Source: a virus
Length of the DNA stretch: 59,107 nt
Virus record (IMG/VR): IMGVR_UViG_3300042934_000561
Span: 1-59,107 of that record
Strand: one strand, 5' to 3'
A program made the translations under genes and the position numbers. The notes under the pieces are model-generated. The model was not told where the DNA came from and searched no databases. It worked only from the letters and a program-made list of their open reading frames with translations. This document shows positions 37,379-57,552 of this stretch, in pieces (the stretch's first letter is position 1; the number at the start of each line of letters is the position of its first letter).

Positions 37379-38107
37379 TTATACCACTCCAAATCCGTCT
37401 AATATAGCTTGCTCTGAGTTAAACTCCTCATCCATATGCATAAAATAAATTTTATTTCGAATCGAAGAATCAAACATACTTAATGCTTTATAATATTGAA
37501 AATGCGGCCAATACTCTTCAGGATTAAAAGCTCTTCCACTAATTTCATGGTAAAACTCATTAATTCTTCCACTTAACAGCATTTGATATATATCTTGTGG
37601 AACTTCGTTAGCATCCCCACTATAGTAAATCGTTTTGTCATTAGTCTGAATTAAATACGCATAGCTAAGTTGTCCCCTATAATGCTCCACCTCTACTGGC
37701 TCTAAGTAGAAATTCAAATTATTATTCTTGTATCCATGCGTTTGACCTTCTCTTAAATCATCAATGTTGTATAAAAGTTTTCTAATTCCCATTTTATACA
37801 ATAAATATTCTAAATCTACTGCATTTGGATATATTATTATTGGAAGAATATCTAAAGCATAATAACAAAAATAAATTAAGTCTCCTAAGGATCCAACATG
37901 ATCTGGATGTAAATGAGTTATAGCCACATGAACACTCGTAACATCCTTTAGTATGAAGTTTCCGCTTTCATCCTGTTCCATTAATTTAGAGAATACAGTT
38001 CCACCGCAGTCTAATAAAAACAAAGAAGTATCAAATTTAATATAAGCTGAATTATTTCCTAATTTAGTGTTAAAAGCTGATCCCTTACCTAAAAAAGTTA
38101 ATTCCAT
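37379..38107 (-). CDS. Metallo-beta-lactamase-fold hydrolase (RNase Z-like)
   Basis: 242 residues starting MELTFLGKGSAFNTKLGNNS, the opening of RNase Z/phosphodiesterase-type MBL proteins. Metal ligands are visible: HLHPDH at 65-70, His142, Asp165 (YYSGDAN) and His224 (FMHMD). It is shorter than true RNase Z and lacks an obvious flexible exosite arm. Likely a phosphodiesterase acting on nucleic acid or a cyclic nucleotide. It is grouped with DHH, MazG and kinase genes, which suggests a nucleotide-processing or anti-signalling set. Confidence 0.82.
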   Translation of the reverse strand: MELTFLGKGSAFNTKLGNNSAYIKFDTSLFLLDCGGTVFSKLMEQDESGNFILKDVTSVHVAITHLHPDHVGSLGDLIYFCYYALDILPIIIYPNAVDLEYLLYKMGIRKLLYNIDDLREGQTHGYKNNNLNFYLEPVEVEHYRGQLSYAYLIQTNDKTIYYSGDANEVPQDIYQMLLSGRINEFYHEISGRAFNPEEYWPHFQYYKALSMFDSSIRNKIYFMHMDEEFNSEQAILDGFGVV

Positions 38108-39166: not shown

Positions 39167-39396
39167 TTATTTAGTCCTCCTTTAAATATTATAACAGACA
39201 TCATTATTGGATACAATAACATAAATAGTAATATAGATAAAGTTTCAAGTATATTACCTAATATATTATTTTCTTTTATTAAAATCTTAACTTCATCTTT
39301 TAAATCATGATTTACGAAATCGCTGAAGAAATTAAAATTTGTAGCAATACATATAATTATCAATAATAAGTAGGAAACTATTAATCCAGTGAGCAT
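39160..39396 (-). CDS. Small membrane protein with two predicted TM segments
   Basis: 78 residues: TM1 about 3-20 (GLIVSYLLLIIICIA), a charged middle, and TM2 about 52-70 (ILLFMLLYPIMMSVIIF). It overlaps the kinase gene by 16 bases and the DHH gene by 7, so it is part of the same transcript. The ribosome binding site is poor, suggesting coupling. A holin is possible by topology, but no endolysin gene is nearby. Confidence 0.55.
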   Translation of the reverse strand: MLTGLIVSYLLLIIICIATNFNFFSDFVNHDLKDEVKILIKENNILGNILETLSILLFMLLYPIMMSVIIFKGGLNKC

Positions 39397-40019
39397 ACTC
39401 CAAACTCATCCTCTCTAACTTCATTTATTATATCTATAATATCGTTAACTACTTCTTGAATTGGTCTATTAGCGTTAACGTATCCTACGTAAGGAATTTG
39501 TATATGCAAAAGTTTGTATCCATCACATATTCTAGATAAATTCTCAGGAGCTTCAAATATATCTCCAGTTTCACCCTTATTTAATTTTTGACTTTTTAAC
39601 CTAGTAACTAAAACTTCATATGGCGCAGTTAATATAATATGAATATTAGGATTAGCTGATCGAATATCAAAAACTTTAATAGTATTTAAAGTTATTCCAT
39701 CTAAAGCACCATGTACGATTCCAGTAGTATAATATCTATCTACTAGTAGAACTTCTGTTCCAGACTTTCTAATCTCCGATAACTGAGTTTTAGTAAAATC
39801 CAATCTATCAGCACTATAAAGCATTTGTAACACCATTGGATCCATCTTCACTTCACCATTTAAAACTCTTTGTATTAGTTGTCCTACTGGAAATTCTCTT
39901 CTATGAAAATGTATAAAATCTGTTTTTACATTTTCATTTAAGTTATAATGGTTCATAACTAAATTTGTTACAGTACTTTTCCCTACTCCATTAGGACCGT
40001 CTATATTAACTATAATCAT
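39381..40019 (-). CDS. Deoxynucleoside monophosphate / thymidylate kinase-like protein
   Basis: 212 residues. P-loop GPNGVGKST at 8-16 and DR at 94-95 (LLVDRYYTTG) match the dTMP kinase family, with a LID-like Lys/Arg region near 150-170. It would phosphorylate a dNMP (probably dTMP) or a deoxynucleoside for phage DNA synthesis. First gene of the leftward transcription unit, with AAGGAGGAAG upstream. Confidence 0.82.
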   Translation of the reverse strand: MIIVNIDGPNGVGKSTVTNLVMNHYNLNENVKTDFIHFHRREFPVGQLIQRVLNGEVKMDPMVLQMLYSADRLDFTKTQLSEIRKSGTEVLLVDRYYTTGIVHGALDGITLNTIKVFDIRSANPNIHIILTAPYEVLVTRLKSQKLNKGETGDIFEAPENLSRICDGYKLLHIQIPYVGYVNANRPIQEVVNDIIDIINEVREDEFGVCSLD

Positions 40020-40249: not shown

Positions 40250-40317
40250 TGCAGAATCTTACGTCGGCCCCATGCAGAATCTTACGTCGGCCCCATGCAG
40301 AATCTTACGTCGGCCCA
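40250..40317. repeat. Tandem repeat cluster A: three 22-23 bp units
   Basis: Two identical 23-bp units (40250-40272, 40273-40295) and one 22-bp unit (40296-40317) share the core CTTACGTCGGCCC. They lie in the ~530-bp divergent region between the leftward late unit and the rightward operon. There are no unique spacers, so this is not a CRISPR array. The period equals two helical turns, as in iterons or operator arrays. Confidence 0.9.
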
Positions 40318-40359
40318 TACGAACGTTAAAGCGTTAAAGTGAAAGTTTATTGAATAACA

Positions 40360-40425
40360 ATAAAAAATTACGTCGGGCCCATGTAAGAAATTACGTCTGC
40401 CCATGTAAGTTCTTACTTCGGCCCG
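40360..40425. repeat. Tandem repeat cluster B: three diverged 22-bp units
   Basis: Units at 40360-40381, 40382-40403 and 40404-40425 carry variants of TTACGTCGGCCCA. They continue cluster A after a 42-bp gap with the same period. Together six sites precede the rightward promoter at 40472. Confidence 0.8.
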
Positions 40426-40471: not shown

Positions 40472-40500
40472 TTGTTACTCTGCTTAAAATCATGTATAAT
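40472..40500 (+). promoter_or_regulatory. Early-type promoter for the 40.5-42.5 kb operon
   Basis: TTGTTA, 17 bases, TATAAT. It lies 46 bases before the first ATG of the rightward operon and 46 bases after the last repeat unit, so repeats could control it. Confidence 0.85.
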
Positions 40501-40546: not shown

Positions 40547-41092
40547 ATGCAGAAAGATAACAGTTTTATAGTAAAGGGAAATCAAATATTTCAAGTTTAT
40601 GGATTTTTATCAGATAGTGTAGTAGTATACGATAGAAAGTCCGAAACTGGGTTAAGCACAATTAAACATAAACAATACGATGATACTATAGTATCTTTTA
40701 GCCAAGATTTTGATAGAAAGTTTAAAGCGTTTTTAAACTTTGTGTTTAATGATCTAAGTTCTATTAATAAAGAAGGTTACGACAATTGGTCATACAAAAA
40801 ATGTGTTCAGTATAATTTTTGTCAAGCTCTAGGATTAGAACCATTTATAACTGACTGTGATGCAGACGATGTTCGTTCTGAAATAACAGTTCGTATGACG
40901 TATGAGTATTTAGCAAATCTTACCGCCCCAAAAGAACTATATCCAGTCAAGTTATACGTAATAGAACAATTACTACAAAAGTCGTATTATCACATTTTAA
41001 ATGACGAGTGGTTGATGGATAAGGCAAAAGATCCTTCAATTGATACTTTAGAATATAGTAGCGTAGAAATTGTTATGCCGGAGGGCGTTTAA
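40547..41092 (+). CDS. Unknown protein, first gene of rightward operon
   Basis: 181 residues with AGGAGGA before the ATG. N-terminal beta part (FIVKGNQIFQVYGFLSDSVVVYD) then a helical region with an acidic patch (FITDCDADDVRSEITVRM). No Zn or nucleotide motif. Being first in an operon controlled by an early-type promoter suggests an early regulatory or host-takeover role, not proven. Confidence 0.65.
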   Translation: MQKDNSFIVKGNQIFQVYGFLSDSVVVYDRKSETGLSTIKHKQYDDTIVSFSQDFDRKFKAFLNFVFNDLSSINKEGYDNWSYKKCVQYNFCQALGLEPFITDCDADDVRSEITVRMTYEYLANLTAPKELYPVKLYVIEQLLQKSYYHILNDEWLMDKAKDPSIDTLEYSSVEIVMPEGV

Positions 41093-41921: not shown

Positions 41922-42039
41922 AAGAACACTAAACACTAGATACTTCGGAAGGAAAAGTAATTTCTACGATACCTCAAGAAATAGCAAAAATAAGGAGAGT
42001 GAAATAAATGACAAATCTAGAATTAATGATAAAAAATAA
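41899..42039 (+). CDS. Possible small basic ORF overlapping both neighbours
   Basis: 46 residues from a TTG nine bases after GGAGG. Like its neighbour it starts MKK and is basic (KRTLNTRYFGRKSNFYDTSRN). It overlaps the neighbours by 23 and 32 bases in other frames. The ribosome binding site is good but the overlaps leave it uncertain. Confidence 0.4.
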   Translation: MKKENLFKRTLNTRYFGRKSNFYDTSRNSKNKESEINDKSRINDKK

Positions 42040-42532
42040 TCTGATAAAGCCTGTCACAGTCCATACTGCTAAGTTTATAACCGATAGGGTTAGTCTACTT
42101 TACGACGATCACAGAAATTTTATAGACGAAGCGTTGAAGCGTACTCTTGCAATGCAGTTTTATGAGTTAGTAGGATCTAACCCAGATGCGTATATTCCCA
42201 GAGTATCAGATAGATATGTATACAAAGAAACGGAAAATGAAATTGAGTTCCACATGAGAATCGATTATTATGTTTTTAACATAGAAGTGAAAAGAGAATT
42301 GGCCGGCCCATTAACATTCAACTTAAGAGAAACTAATGTATCTCCTCAGCAGGTAGCTTATGAAAGATTGACGATATTTAAACAAGAAATTAAAAATGCA
42401 ACTGATTTAAGTCATGCTGAAATTCAATCGGTAGTAGGATCATTAAGCACGAAGTATGAATTAGATTTATTAAAGGCTGTATTTAATAGATTAGGATTTG
42501 TAGGACTAAAGCAGTTAAGCACGCTAAAGTAG
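42008..42532 (+). CDS. Unknown protein, last gene of rightward operon
   Basis: 174 residues with AAGGAGAG before the ATG. Alpha/beta; the middle has an EFHMRIDYYVFNIEVKREL strand pair and the C-terminus is helical (ELDLLKAVFNRLGFVGLKQL). No motif recognised. The terminator hairpin at 42515 overlaps its end. Confidence 0.65.
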   Translation: MTNLELMIKNNLIKPVTVHTAKFITDRVSLLYDDHRNFIDEALKRTLAMQFYELVGSNPDAYIPRVSDRYVYKETENEIEFHMRIDYYVFNIEVKRELAGPLTFNLRETNVSPQQVAYERLTIFKQEIKNATDLSHAEIQSVVGSLSTKYELDLLKAVFNRLGFVGLKQLSTLK

Positions 42533-42541
42533 CGTGCTTAA
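42515..42541. terminator. 12-bp hairpin at end of rightward operon
   Basis: TTAAGCACGCTA and TAGCGTGCTTAA pair perfectly around AAG, overlapping the stop codon. The T tract after it is short, so it may work with the next hairpin. Confidence 0.7.
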
Positions 42542-42588
42542 ATTCAAATTGTCTTTAGCTTGTAATAATTAAATAGTGTATTTGTATA

Positions 42589-42631
42589 CCCGTAAACTTT
42601 GTCGGAAGACAGCGGTTTGCGGGATTTTTAT
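42589..42631 (+). terminator. Intrinsic terminator with GGAA tetraloop
   Basis: CCCGTAAAC pairs with GTTTGCGGG (one G-U), with an inner TGTC-GGAA-GACA stem-loop, then ATTTTTATT. This is a second, longer terminator 48 bases after the first. Confidence 0.75.
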
Positions 42632-43097
42632 TGAAGTTTAAAAGAATTACTATAAAGGCGAAGCCTACGGGTGATTGGGCGGTTACCCTGTTTCAGTAAA
42701 AGAGTTCCAGATATTGATACTGATATCATCCATAAACTATAAATCCTTTGGAATTAGCACTAAGAACGCATTGGCAGGCAGGGTGGCAGAAACTCTTGCT
42801 TAAGCAATTCATTTGAATCATTGGGTCAATAGATGGCGTGGGCAGGATAGAAATGTATTGTAGGTTTAAATATTAATTATATCATGTATAACTGGGCATG
42901 TGAATACGGGCATATTTTCAAGGGGCATATGATCACAGGGCGCTGGAATCACGGGGCGCTTGGCGAGTGGGCAATTGAAACAAGGGGCGATGGGCTCGTG
43001 AAGATCTGATAATGAGCGAAGAGGCGAGGAGGCACTTGATTTGTAAAAATTTAAATCTTATATTTTTAAGGTCATTGATTTAAGGTTTAAAAGAAGT
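42632..43097. other. Non-coding stretch with small hairpins and a GGGC array
   Basis: No convincing frame with a ribosome binding site is seen. Base composition is richer in G than the flanks. Small hairpins include AGGC-GAA-GCCT (about 42656) and GGGTGA...TTACCC (about 42669-42688). The right part contains the periodic GGGC array. It could hold a structured RNA, a packaging site or a protein-binding region; I cannot decide which. Confidence 0.6.
42894..42996. repeat. GGGC array with about 15-bp period
   Basis: GGGC occurs at 42894, 42908, 42923, 42938, 42954, 42969, 42985 and 42992, mostly as (G)GGGC(A/G). The first seven are spaced 14, 15, 15, 16, 15 and 16 bases apart. Intervening bases are not conserved, so it is a phased short motif and not a simple tandem repeat. 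Confidence 0.8.
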
Positions 43098-43108
43098 GGG
43101 GGGGGGGG
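43098..43108 (+). repeat. Run of eleven G
   Basis: An uninterrupted G11 run in AT-rich DNA, followed by the small hairpin ATGGT-TTCAT-ACCAT. Such a run is rare at this base composition. Confidence 0.85.
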
Positions 43109-43206
43109 ATGGTTTCATACCATCTTGAAAAAAGGTGATTTACACATCCGAAAGGGTCTTCTACCCATAGAGAGGCATGTAAGAATTTGTATTTTATGGA
43201 AAAGTT

Positions 43207-43375
43207 TAGCAATTGACAATTATTGTTAATTACCAGTTATTTGTAAATTGTAATTATTGGAAAATTACAATAATTGTTAATTGTTAAATATTTGCAATTG
43301 TAAATAATTGTTATTTGACAATTAATGTATATTTACAATTATTAATTGTTAACAATTTGTTTACAATTAAATGTA
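43207..43375. repeat. Very AT-rich block of repeated ACAATTATT/AATAATTGT words
   Basis: About 170 bp of almost pure A and T with an occasional G or C, in which ACAATTATT-, TAATTGTTAATTG- and TTGTAATTATT-type words recur on both strands. It ends at a promoter. The look fits a DNA-unwinding element or origin, or an UP-element-like region; no initiator gene is adjacent. Confidence 0.65.
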
Positions 43376-43404
43376 TTGTAATTATAACTTTTATATGTTA
43401 TAAT
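43376..43404 (+). promoter_or_regulatory. Early-type promoter for the 43.6-44.8 kb operon
   Basis: TTGTAA, 17 bases, TATAAT. A GGAGGG about 15 bases downstream is not followed by a start codon; the 43420-43560 leader repeats words of the coding region (for example ACTGGTAATGAC) and may be a gene remnant. Confidence 0.85.
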
Positions 43405-43581
43405 TAGTTATAGGTTGAAAGGAGGGAAACACAGTAAATAGTAAAAAGTTGGTAAATACATATACTGGCAAATGTAATTAACTGGTAATGACACTTGAGC
43501 ATGACACGCGTTATTTGACAAATTAATAATTGTAAAAAGTTGGAACTACTTAAAATTAATTAATTAAGGAGATGTATTATT

Positions 43582-44172
43582 GTGGAAAAAAAGAACATGA
43601 TTAAATTAGTTGGAACTTTAAAGGGTACTGAAAAAGGATATATGGATAGCGAAAAGGAAATTATTGTAAGTCCCGAATTTATGTTTAATGGTGAGGTAGT
43701 TACTGGAAATTTTGAAGTTGTTGGAGGTATAGAGGACGCTAAGAATAACAACATAATATTTAATAGCTTACTCGAAAAAGAGGTAAAAAATGTAAATTTC
43801 TTAAAGACGGTTACTTTTAAGAGTAAGAGCGGCAAAGAGTTTTATTTAACACTGGCAAATAGTTACAAATGGGGAATAAAGGCAAATGAAAAGGAAGGGT
43901 ATATTAAAGAACAAAAAGAAGTGGGTTTTATTTACAGTAAGGAGGTAATTACTGTAAAGGCTACTGAAAAGACTGCTGAAAAGACTACTGAAAAAATTAC
44001 ATTTATTGGAACTTGGCTAAGTGCTAACACTATAATCAATCAATTACTGGTAATGACTGGCAGTAAATACAATAAGTGCAATGCAATATATATGAGCGCT
44101 ACAATTGATAGAATTAGCGTTAATAGCAAGACAGTAACAGAGAAAAAGGAACTTGTTACAAAGGAATGGTAA
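43582..44172 (+). CDS. Unknown protein, GTG start, ending KEW
   Basis: 196 residues from a GTG seven bases after AAGGAGATG. Beta-rich with a Thr/Glu/Lys repeat (KATEKTAEKTTEKITF, about residues 125-140) between two domains. It ends LVTKEW and is followed by a hairpin that recurs after the next gene. Codon use looks somewhat different from the neighbours (more GGC and AGC), which suggests separate origin. Function unknown. Confidence 0.65.
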   Translation: MEKKNMIKLVGTLKGTEKGYMDSEKEIIVSPEFMFNGEVVTGNFEVVGGIEDAKNNNIIFNSLLEKEVKNVNFLKTVTFKSKSGKEFYLTLANSYKWGIKANEKEGYIKEQKEVGFIYSKEVITVKATEKTAEKTTEKITFIGTWLSANTIINQLLVMTGSKYNKCNAIYMSATIDRISVNSKTVTEKKELVTKEW

Positions 44173-44730: not shown

Positions 44731-44817
44731 ATGAGTGTAATGTTTGCACTACTTAGAATATTTGGCCCAGTATTAATAATAATGTTAATGTACAGCTTGA
44801 AAAAGAGCACTGCTTAG
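44731..44817 (+). CDS. 28-residue single-pass membrane peptide
   Basis: MSVMFALLRIFGPVLIIMLM then YSLKKSTA: one TM segment and a basic tail. It begins three bases after the preceding stop. A similar peptide is encoded at 55072-55167 (FALIRIFSPV). No own ribosome binding site, so coupling is needed. Its stop lies inside the terminator stem. Confidence 0.5.
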   Translation: MSVMFALLRIFGPVLIIMLMYSLKKSTA

Positions 44818-44828
44818 GCAGTGCTTTT
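44806..44828 (+). terminator. Terminator of the second rightward operon
   Basis: AGCACTGC pairs with GCAGTGCT around TTAG and is followed by TTTATT. It includes the stop codon of the 28-residue peptide. Confidence 0.82.
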
Positions 44829-44934
44829 ATTGCGTCTAAAGATCTGGGTTAGACTCTTGGGTCTAGATCCAGATAAGAACTATTGATAAGATGCAGAGCC
44901 TCTGCAAGCTTCTAATATAGAAACAACTCATAAG

Positions 44935-44955
44935 AATTTGGACTCGAATGGACCC
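44935..44955 (+). repeat. Dispersed 20-bp element, copy a
   Basis: Reads ATTTGGACTCGAATGGACCC. Member of the family with consensus ATTYGGACTYGAATGGAYCC found only between genes from 44.9 kb rightwards. Confidence 0.8.
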
Positions 44956-45146
44956 CTACCCGTTACCCTTTCTGGATTGATTGATACCCATACCTATATC
45001 TTTGGATTGAAATAAATTCGCCTGCCCATCACTAATAACCTACCTATCCTATTATAGTTGTTATATCCCTATCTGTTAGTGTTATTAATGGGATTAGAAT
45101 AAGATAAGGTTTTTCCTTGCCGGGCGATCTTTTTAGAAACCAATAG

Positions 45147-45167
45147 AATTCGGACTTGAATGGATCC
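45147..45167 (+). repeat. Dispersed 20-bp element, copy b
   Basis: Reads ATTCGGACTTGAATGGATCC. Same orientation as copy a, 212 bases away in the same gap. Confidence 0.8.
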
Positions 45168-45211
45168 TACCTCTACCTATGGATCGGCATCTGAACCCGT
45201 GTCTTGATCGT

Positions 45212-45239
45212 AAAAAAAAGAGCACCCAAAGGCGCTCTT
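45212..45239 (-). terminator. Terminator of the leftward small-gene operon
   Basis: On the minus strand AAGAGCGCC pairs with GGTGCTCTT (one G-U) and eight T follow. It overlaps the stop at 45238. Confidence 0.88.
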
Positions 45240-46896: not shown

Positions 46897-46951
46897 GGTA
46901 AGAGTTTTTGTGTGGGCGGCATTTATTTATAGAGGTTCGAAGAATTGATAA

Positions 46952-46972
46952 AGATCCATTCAAGGCCGAAAG
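46952..46972 (-). repeat. Dispersed 20-bp element, copy i
   Basis: The minus strand reads TTTCGGCCTTGAATGGATCT, 56 bases upstream of the -35. One base of the GGACT core is changed to GGCCT. Confidence 0.65.
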
Positions 46973-47029
46973 GCATTGAGCAGAAGCGTTGCGGCTGCCA
47001 GGCCGGTTGGCAACGAAAACGAAACCAAG

Positions 47030-47050
47030 GATTCGGACTCGAATGGACCC
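47030..47050 (+). repeat. Dispersed 20-bp element, copy c
   Basis: Reads ATTCGGACTCGAATGGACCC, inverted relative to copy i in the same intergenic region, 57 bases away. Contains ATTCG-GACT-CGAAT, a perfect short inverted repeat. Confidence 0.8.
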
Positions 47051-47101
47051 GCACCCACACCTGTGGTATTGACACTCTAATACTCTGTGCAGATTGATCA
47101 C

Positions 47102-47124
47102 AAAAAAAGCACCCTTAGGCGCTC
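47102..47124 (-). terminator. Terminator after the 92-residue gene
   Basis: On the minus strand AGCGCC pairs with GGGTGCT around TAA and seven T follow. Five bases after the stop at 47130. Confidence 0.82.
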
Positions 47125-47519: not shown

Positions 47520-47966
47520 ATCTTAATCGATCAAAATGAGTCTAAATCTGGTCTAAACCAGTCAAAAAGGTTATAAAACGCCGCCCCAAATAAAAATATC
47601 AACCAATCTTCTGTACTAATAGCCAATTTCCGCTAGTTGCTAGGGGTCGTATAAAGGAATTAGATGGTGTTAAGGTGTTAAGGTATGCAGATGTGAGCAC
47701 CTTTAGGTGAAAGAAGATAGCGAAACGACACGATAGTGGCGCGAAGCGTCCTCTAATCAAGGAATTCGGACTCGAATGGGTTGGACCAGGCTCCTTGACG
47801 TTGACTAATGGTACTCGACGGCAATCAAGTGACGGAAGTGACCATGGACGGTACTTCAGAGGGGATCCGGTAAAGCGTTGATATTGCTAGGGTTCTGACA
47901 AATAGACGGAATTGGGCTCAGATAGTGCGACTATAAAATTTTGTAAAAATCAGAGGGACAGGTGAG
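47520..47966 (+). ncRNA. Candidate structured RNA region on the plus strand
   Basis: No gene is visible, yet this stretch is GC-richer than its surroundings, contains many local helices (CTGGT-CTAA-ACCAG, CACCT-TT-AGGTG, a TCAAGGA...TCCTTGA closing helix around copy d of the dispersed element) and runs into a plus-strand terminator at 47967, in a block where all genes are on minus. A promoter of the usual class is not seen on plus. RNA identity is a hypothesis. Confidence 0.35.
47763..47783 (+). repeat. Dispersed 20-bp element, copy d
   Basis: Reads ATTCGGACTCGAATGGGTTG; the last bases depart from consensus. It sits in the loop of a possible TCAAGGA/TCCTTGA helix. Confidence 0.7.
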
Positions 47967-47992
47967 GAGGGGCCATCGAATCCCCTCTTTTT
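47967..47992 (+). terminator. Plus-strand intrinsic terminator
   Basis: GAGGGG pairs with CCCCTC around a 9-base loop and TTTTT follows on the plus strand. No plus-strand gene ends here. On the minus strand there is no T run. Confidence 0.7.
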
Positions 47993-48046
47993 GCAGTTCT
48001 TCTGTTCTTTTTGCAGTTCTTCTGTACTTTTTGCAGTTCTTCTGAC
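47987..48046. repeat. Three tandem 20-bp repeats
   Basis: CTTTTTGCAGTTCTTCTGT plus one variable base, three times in a row at 47987, 48007 and 48027. The first copy includes the T run of the plus-strand terminator. Confidence 0.9.
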
Positions 48047-53409: not shown

Positions 53410-53604
53410 TTAAACACTTCCGTCTGTAGTATTATGTATGTTAACAGTTGAATTTTTTGTGCCCGAGATTTTTTCTATTTCTGAATTTAAAATTGATACA
53501 AAACTTATCTCAGGCAAACTAAGTTCTTTACCTCGCTTAGAATTAATAGTGCCTTCGTGATTTCCACGATCCAAAGAAGTTTTAGTTTCTGTTAACTTTA
53601 TCAT
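53410..53604 (-). CDS. Small unknown protein coupled to the AbrB-like gene
   Basis: 64 residues, beginning in the ATGA-type overlap with the AbrB-like stop. Polar, Ser/Thr/Asn-rich, with one central amphipathic helix. No motif. Confidence 0.5.
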   Translation of the reverse strand: MIKLTETKTSLDRGNHEGTINSKRGKELSLPEISFVSILNSEIEKISGTKNSTVNIHNTTDGSV

Positions 53605-53876
53605 TCATTCACCTCGCTTAAAGATTGTTCTACTAGATCTAGTATCTCCTCTCTGCTTAGCCTAAAAGAAGTATATAAGGTAGCTACTAAGTTCTTAATT
53701 TCTTTTATTGGCCTATTATCAGTATCAATATACTTTCTTAATAAAACATCGTCATCATTCGTAAGATAAAACTCAAATTTCTGACCTTCGTGAGCATTAA
53801 TCGCTCTTCTAACTTCTTGGGGAATCACTACTCGACCCATCGAATCTAATGCTCTAATTGCTCCAACACTTTTCAT
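53601..53876 (-). CDS. AbrB/SpoVT-type transcription regulator
   Basis: 91 residues from the ATG at 53876 (TAATG overlap with the upstream gene). Residues 1-45 (SVGAIRALDSMGRVVIPQEV, RRAINAHEGQKFEFYL) match the swapped-hairpin DNA-binding domain of AbrB and SpoVT. The C-terminal part is helical. It probably binds DNA as a dimer or tetramer; the palindromes at nearby promoters are candidate targets, which is inference. Confidence 0.88.
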   Translation of the reverse strand: MKSVGAIRALDSMGRVVIPQEVRRAINAHEGQKFEFYLTNDDDVLLRKYIDTDNRPIKEIKNLVATLYTSFRLSREEILDLVEQSLSEVNE

Positions 53877-54103
53877 TATAGCACCCACTTTGTTTTATTT
53901 TGTTTTCGAGCCCATATAGAGATCTCTTCTGCCGCCGCACTATGTATGTTCTCTAGCAAATTTTCTGCTTCTTTCTCACTTAGCCGAATATTAAAGTCAA
54001 ATTCCAGCGTATCTACAAAAGTATCTATGTCCTCTGGAAGTTTTTGTACAATAATCTCGGCAATATCAATATTATTGTTCATTAGACTCTCATACTTATT
54101 CAT
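53876..54103 (-). CDS. Small acidic protein upstream of the AbrB-like gene
   Basis: 75 residues with AAAGGAGG before the ATG. Acidic helices (IAEIIVQKLPEDIDTFVDTL, then LSE KEAENLLENIHSAA). It overlaps its neighbours by 8 and 1 bases. Could be a partner of the regulator; unknown. Confidence 0.55.
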   Translation of the reverse strand: MNKYESLMNNNIDIAEIIVQKLPEDIDTFVDTLEFDFNIRLSEKEAENLLENIHSAAAEEISIWARKQNKTKWVL

Positions 54104-56178: not shown

Positions 56179-57471
56179 CTATTGAGCTACTGCTTCTTTC
56201 TCCGACTCTACATTAGGTGTAGTGGTTTCAGGAGAACTAATTTCAGTTGATGCCGCAACTTCTGTAGTAGTAACTTCTCCTCCACGTTTTCTTGAAGGCT
56301 CATCATCTACATTTAAACTTTTTACTCTAGATTTAAGGCCTCTTTTATGCTTAATTATCTGATCTATGGTCCCCCAACTAATGGTACACTCTTGCCCAGG
56401 ATTTAATTCATCCTGTAGAACATCTATTATAGTTGCTAAGGATACGTATTCCAGCATACATATTCCATCTGGATCATGTAATGTACACACAGCGCTATTT
56501 CCATATTTATTTATATGTAAAGTATATTCCTTAAAGCTTATAGATTCAGATGTTGGTTTAGTGTCTTCTTTTGGAAATTTTGCAGTAATAATTCTATTTG
56601 TACCATCTGCGACGCTTAAATTTGGAAATCTATATTTGTGCTTAAGTCCTACCGAGTAATCTACTTTCTTTCCCATAAACGTGATTACATTGATTAAACT
56701 ATTACCATCGTTGCTAACTCTTTGCCAAGCTTTAGCAATAAGTTCCTTATTAGTTTTCTTATTAGTGTTCGGTTCGATTTGAGCTTTGTCTTTATTTCCA
56801 GCTTCGTTATCCTGCTTAAACTGCTCTATAAGTTTATCATCTTCTGAAAGTTCCATCTTTACTTCTTCTGTCTTAACTTCTTCTGTCTTAACTTCTTCTG
56901 TCTTAACTTCTTCTGCCGTTACTTCTTCCTGCTTTACTTCTTCCTGCTTTACTTCTTCCTGCTTTACTTCTTCCTGCTTTACTTCTTCCTGCTTTACTTC
57001 TTCTGTCTTTACTTCGTTTATCTCGTTCGCAACTTTTACAGCTTCTTCTTCTACAACAGCCTCATTCATTGCTTGTTTAACTTCTTCCGAAGTAGCAGTT
57101 CCGTCCACAATTAATTCTGAAGCTACAGCATTTTTAATTTCTGTTGAAGTAACATTTTCTGAGATGACTGAATTAACTGTGTTATTATCGACATTCAATT
57201 CTGTTTTTAACTTCTTATCTGAATTTTCCGAGTCGTTTTTAGCTTTTTCAGCAAGTGCTAAAGCTTTTTCAATTCTTTCTGGATCTCCACTTTCCATGGC
57301 TAGTTCAAGTTCCTTATTAACTGCTTCTAAGTTATTTATTATAGCATCAGTTTTCTTTTCAAGTTCCTGAGTGTCCACTTTCTTAATAGTTTCAAGTTTT
57401 TTCTTTAAGTCGTTACCTCCAGGTTGATTTGAGTTTTTAGTGTTACTGTTTTTAGTGTTTAGTGTTTTCAT
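56179..57471 (-). CDS. 430-residue unknown protein with EEVK repeats
   Basis: Starts at the ATG at 57471 eight bases after GGGAGG. The N-terminal third is Lys/Glu coiled coil. About ten pentapeptide EEVK(Q/T) repeats (residues about 152-203) form a charged linker. Residues about 245-390 look folded (TFMGKKVDYSVGLKHKYRF, then PDGICMLEYVSLATIIDVLQ). The C-terminus is Ser/Thr/Glu-rich. Function unknown; the folded part may be a nucleic-acid-binding core. Confidence 0.7.
   Translation of the reverse strand: MKTLNTKNSNTKNSNQPGGNDLKKKLETIKKVDTQELEKKTDAIINNLEAVNKELELAMESGDPERIEKALALAEKAKNDSENSDKKLKTELNVDNNTVNSVISENVTSTEIKNAVASELIVDGTATSEEVKQAMNEAVVEEEAVKVANEINEVKTEEVKQEEVKQEEVKQEEVKQEEVKQEEVTAEEVKTEEVKTEEVKTEEVKMELSEDDKLIEQFKQDNEAGNKDKAQIEPNTNKKTNKELIAKAWQRVSNDGNSLINVITFMGKKVDYSVGLKHKYRFPNLSVADGTNRIITAKFPKEDTKPTSESISFKEYTLHINKYGNSAVCTLHDPDGICMLEYVSLATIIDVLQDELNPGQECTISWGTIDQIIKHKRGLKSRVKSLNVDDEPSRKRGGEVTTTEVAASTEISSPETTTPNVESEKEAVAQ
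56861..57015. repeat. 15-bp tandem repeats within the coding region
   Basis: Units of the ACTTCTTCCTGCTTT and ACTTCTTCTGTCTTA types repeat about ten times, encoding the EEVKQ/EEVKT pentapeptides. Two homogeneous blocks indicate recent slippage or recombination. Confidence 0.88.
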
Positions 57472-57523
57472 TTTACTTTCCTCCCTGTTTTTGTTAAAAT
57501 TTGTTATTTGCTTTACAATTATA

Positions 57524-57552
57524 ATTATACATGGTTTACATTGGAATTGCAA
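57524..57552 (-). promoter_or_regulatory. Early-type promoter
   Basis: TTGCAA, 17 bases, TATAAT, 53 bases before the ATG at 57471. Confidence 0.82.

Follow-up and report, generated by a model that had tools for sequence, protein, structure and literature searches.

What keeps a short GGGC motif in regular phase within the intergenic DNA of an AT-rich phage? The locus lies in a 59,107-bp virus record, the whole stretch of DNA analysed here (the window), which has a GC content of 33% and carries portal, capsid and terminase genes; no end repeat was found in the record. A Firmicutes-type host is only a guess, made from an AbrB/MazE-like protein encoded at 53601-53888. On the + strand GGGC occurs 54 times in the window, and 8 of the 54 copies are inside the array. 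The starts at 42894, 42908, 42923, 42938, 42954, 42969 and 42985, in steps of 14-16 bp, and the additional one at 42992 were found exactly where the original prediction had placed them. A chain of seven motifs at 14-16 bp was never obtained in 1000 first-order Markov simulations of 42640-43150 (511 bp, any period of 8-40 allowed). Dinucleotide-preserving shuffles of 42884-43010 likewise gave no chain of seven in 20,000 trials, and no chain of five (0/20,000). When 8 GGGC blocks were placed randomly in an equal length, array-like evenness had a probability of ~7e-5. The phasing of GGGC in the array is thus real and significant, well above chance.

Nearly all genes of the window are on the minus strand, except in a block at 40.5-44.8 kb, and the array is inside this block. 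It is contained in the 1 kb between 42533 and 43559, the window's longest stretch without an ORF of at least 60 aa, and by ORF criteria its assignment to non-coding DNA was borne out. Alternative genetic codes gave no long ORF across the array; the longest frame between stops had 82 residues and required the reassignment of two stop codons. At the upstream edge of the gap, after the gene at 42008-42532, sequence and fold indicate a terminator-like stem-loop with a T tract (42585-42635, +). Downstream of the array, the run of 11 G reported nearby was confirmed at 43098-43108 (+), and a predicted GATGG...CCATC hairpin follows it. The very AT-rich block at 43197-43370 is operator- or origin-like, with long imperfect inverted repeats and an AATTGT/ACAAT repeat of 17-bp period that includes ACAAT-N-ATTGT palindromes. 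A promoter-like TTGTAA-17-TATAAT with an extended -10 (43376-43404, +) precedes the gene at 43582-44172. The 8.4-kb region has its best sigma-70-like match at 42876-42904 (minus strand), TTCACA-17-TATAAT with an extended -10; this is a consensus match only and overlaps the left end of the array. The sequence CATGTATAA(T) was seen at 40491 and 42883 on the + strand and at 57533, 55719 and 47456 on the minus strand, mostly upstream of genes. It is probably an extended -10 promoter element, of which the copy at 42883 immediately precedes the array.

The nature of the array was addressed through its spacers. Divided into exact 15-bp steps that begin at 42893, the array (42893-42997, +) comprises the seven units TGGGCATGTGAATAC, GGGCATATTTTCAAG, GGGCATATGATCACA, GGGCGCTGGAATCAC, GGGGCGCTTGGCGAG, TGGGCAATTGAAACA and AGGGGCGATGGGCTC, with a consensus of roughly GGGC-AT-N-TGAA-N-CAAG. 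GG are the sole invariant columns in this strict register, the rest giving p=0.17 against shuffles. When the spacers were aligned on GGGC with gaps, their similarity was 76 as compared to 60.4 +/- 4.3 for shuffled spacers (p=0.0005), and left alignment gave p=0.0024. Spacer identity was ~39-47% (gapped mean 47%), with GGGC unchanged in 7/7 units. Between the neighbouring unit boundaries ATCACAGGGCGCT and ATCACGGGGCGCT only one of 13 bases differs. On average, neighbouring spacers were as alike (0.48) as distant pairs (0.47), and TRF detected only 2.3 units in the array at a low threshold. Because the spacers exceed shuffles in likeness and the unit boundaries match at 12/13 bases, the array is best read as an old, degenerate 15-bp tandem repeat that would have arisen by tandem duplication. 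The original prediction had held that the bases between the motifs are not conserved; this is incorrect, as the spacers resemble one another beyond the level of shuffles. Its exclusion of slippage conflicts with the similarity that the spacers retain and with a 13-base stretch nearly repeated between neighbouring units.

A minisatellite in decay within an intergenic patch of higher GC content, neutral and functionless today, is a possible but somewhat doubtful explanation, under which the conservation of GGGC would reflect recent duplication, homogenisation or post hoc choice of the motif. The residual spacer similarity fits it, as do the further short tandem arrays of the genome (40250-40424, 47986-48044 and 56857-57015) and a distant collinear relative, G007, that has no such array; GGGC, however, is fixed in 7/7 units despite strongly diverged spacers. 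In a neutral-decay simulation at 44-52% identity, four adjacent columns remained invariant in seven copies with a probability of 3e-5 to 5e-4, an estimate that comes from a simple star model of one sequence and is partly post hoc. Since neutral decay seldom leaves GGGC fixed in all seven units with spacers this diverged, the model points to constraint or selection on the GGGC core. As to the other arrays, 47986-48044 holds three 20-bp tandem repeats, TCTTTTTGCAGTTCTTCTGT, right after a terminator-like stem, and 56857-57015 holds ten 15-bp repeats encoding an EEVKQ/EEVKT stretch in the gene at 56179-57552 (minus strand). At 40250-40424, between the divergent genes 39381-40019 (minus) and 40547-41092 (+), two operator-like arrays each contain three near-identical 22-23-bp repeats with a TTACGTCGGCCCCATG core, and every repeat copy holds GCCC, the complement of the GGGC motif.

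Our preferred reading, held tentatively and at less than even confidence, is an iteron-like or operator-like row of putative binding sites in which the old 15-bp repeat has retained its GGGC core. The phage would have, in its principal intergenic regulatory stretch, a minisatellite that kept this core while the remainder of each unit decayed. Contact of each core with a nucleic-acid-binding protein would be the most likely cause of the retention, and the array could act as a multi-site loading platform controlling the flanking genes or replication. The setting was counted for this reading, namely the longest ORF-free gap, the terminator-like stem upstream, the promoter-like sites and the AT-rich palindromic block of 17-bp period alongside. 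No known protein binding a GGGC core was identified. The cooperative protein binding proposed earlier survives in part: a row of binding sites is the functional reading favoured here, but binding on the same face of double-stranded DNA is disfavoured. The helical angles of the seven sites are scattered (0, 120, 274, 69, 257, 51 and 240 degrees), and the sites are on different faces of the double helix because 15 bp amounts to 1.43 turns. Single-stranded recognition or wrapping would be indifferent to this pitch. A phage protein or RNA might recognise bare GGGC where it recurs every 15 nt along single-stranded RNA or melted DNA, with selection acting on this pitch and not on the intervening sequence, unlike in iterons; we regard this variant as a long shot. 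The suggested role in packaging or as an origin gained no direct support. No DnaA-like boxes occur near the array, their only positions being 36803, 39009 and 40435, and no replication initiator was matched among the neighbouring proteins.

The exact 15-nt period could also reflect codons. A 41-aa ORF (MYNWACEYGHIFKGHMITGRWNHGALGEWAIETRGDGLVKI; 42884-43009, +) spans the array with an exact five-codon period, and its translation as a small coding repeat of five residues would account for the 14/15/16 jitter of GGGC by codon register. GGGC phased at 15 nt was moreover typical of pentapeptide-repeat genes in an IMG/VR scan (L118, L069 and L079). The residues of the ORF, however, do not fit the A(D/N)LXX pattern of pentapeptide repeats, and no Pfam, PHROG or tblastn match was obtained; a Shine-Dalgarno sequence is lacking, whereas neighbouring genes have clear ones, and the codons are GC-rich for this genome. 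As it has GC-rich codons and neither a Shine-Dalgarno nor a family, the ORF is probably not translated, and a coding origin of the period is very unlikely.

Transcription of the + strand offers another explanation. The array could be part of a phage non-coding RNA (~42640-43140, +) in which the repeated GGGC segments stay single-stranded and are bound by a protein or by a GCCC-bearing RNA through base pairing. This is consistent with the GC content of 41% at 42640-43140 and 53% at 42890-43045 against 33% for the genome, with a closing helix in the predicted fold (42862-42871/43048-43057) and with the GCCC array at 40250-40424 of the same phage, yet no + strand promoter match was found between 42540 and 42890. 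Nor did the structured RNA of the original prediction find backing, as folding of the + strand was equal to that of shuffles (z of 0.02 for 42640-43200, 0.15 for 42640-42870 and -0.55 for 42860-43060). Rfam gave no match above the gathering score; a permissive threshold added a single hit, insignificant and located upstream of the array. We consider such an RNA unlikely. Other GC-richer non-coding islands are present at 44815-45215, 46900-47105 and 47570-47995. They carry a (G/A)ATTCGGACTCGAATGG motif (44934-44955, 45146-45166, 47029-47050 and 47762-47779, and also inverted at 46953-46970), which may mark a small RNA family. In IMG/VR ATTCGGACTCGAATGG was found in 5 stretches, about the chance level, none of them tRNA, and ARAGORN detected no tRNA in the islands of the window.

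On the minus strand, the C-rich complement of the array could activate the promoter at 42904-42876 from upstream, or could load Rho as a rut-like stretch and so halt antisense transcription. The best promoter match of the region does overlap the array, and few 100-nt stretches of 40-48 kb show a greater excess of C over G than the minus strand does here; against this, promoter matches in the region are at shuffle level (42 vs 37.5) and no minus-strand gene lies just downstream. A minus-strand control element is thus improbable in our estimate. Less probable still, to the point of being hardly credible, is a G-quadruplex built from the GGG runs of the array. Eight such runs are present and fit a relaxed pattern if loops may reach 12, but no set of four G3 runs joined by loops of 1-7 exists, so of the four-stranded G structures thought conceivable earlier only the long-loop form is left. 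Loops of 11-13 nt give weak quadruplexes.

Within the extent of the searches, phages, plasmids and IMG/VR yielded no relative with the array region. No homologues were detected by blastn (42000-44000 against phages; 42590-43480 against plasmids), and the flanking proteins encoded at 42008-42532 and 43582-44172 had no relatives in IMG/VR or phages. The terminase relatives L006, L007, L008 and L035 (71, 68, 69 and 68% identity) are short contigs that stop before the array region, and a match to the DHH protein (L005) was at 27%. A DNA search of nine related records yielded chance-level matches only. G007, of 80 kb, has a terminase of 46% identity and collinear structural genes; it contains no GGGC-type chain, no copies of the flanking genes and no syntenic copy of the array region. 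The absence of the array from G007 tells little, because the flanking genes are missing there too. In a different part of the window, 37379-38107 encodes a metallo-beta-lactamase-fold protein whose match to the anti-Pycsar Apyc1 family PF23023 is sub-threshold (42.9 bits against a cut-off of 50); the gene is a candidate anti-defence gene.

The IMG/VR pattern scan for five GGGC at the array pitch returned 55 stretches; most were simple tandem repeats, genes of high GC content or genes for pentapeptide repeats. Its only AT-rich group (L085, L094, L099, L106 and L108; GGGC period of 8 nt) was considered as a conserved non-coding analogue and rejected, since L099 has a single open frame if TAG is read as Q. 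In these phage contigs the GGGC array is just past a TAG, and the L099 frame stays open for 395 aa with TAG=Q, which suggests stop-codon recoding in the group. Nothing was found in the literature on GGGC-phased phage arrays. Selection on core and pitch, if real, would make the array a site of regulation or replication in a phage group that has been little sampled, and would suggest that a binding protein not yet described recognises a very short site. As a decaying repeat, the array would instead caution that phased intergenic motifs can be the remnant of tandem duplication.

Among known systems, the pentapeptide-repeat genes (L118, L069 and L079/L103) share the 15-nt period and GGGC with the array, whose own frame differs in having 41 aa and in lacking both a ribosome site and the A(D/N)LXX pattern. 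The phage-associated RNAs GOLLD and ROOL (PMC12286853) resemble the array region as large, GC-richer non-coding islands in AT-rich phage; unlike them, the array region has no Rfam match, no folding above shuffles and no detected relatives. Degenerate intergenic minisatellites or VNTR have the same fixed-length, head-to-tail units of partial similarity, whereas the array keeps one tetranucleotide invariant with the remainder strongly diverged. With the iterons of plasmid and phage origins (RepA, pi and lambda O sites) the array has in common short direct repeats, an intergenic position and a nearby AT-rich block. Iterons are ~17-22 bp long, have most bases conserved and are usually near helical phase; in contrast, the array is spaced at 15 bp and has only 4 fixed bases, GGGC, with spacers ~47% identical in place of highly conserved direct repeats. 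The AT-rich melting region that adjoins iterons has its counterpart here in 43197-43470, of 20% GC, ~200 bp downstream of the array.
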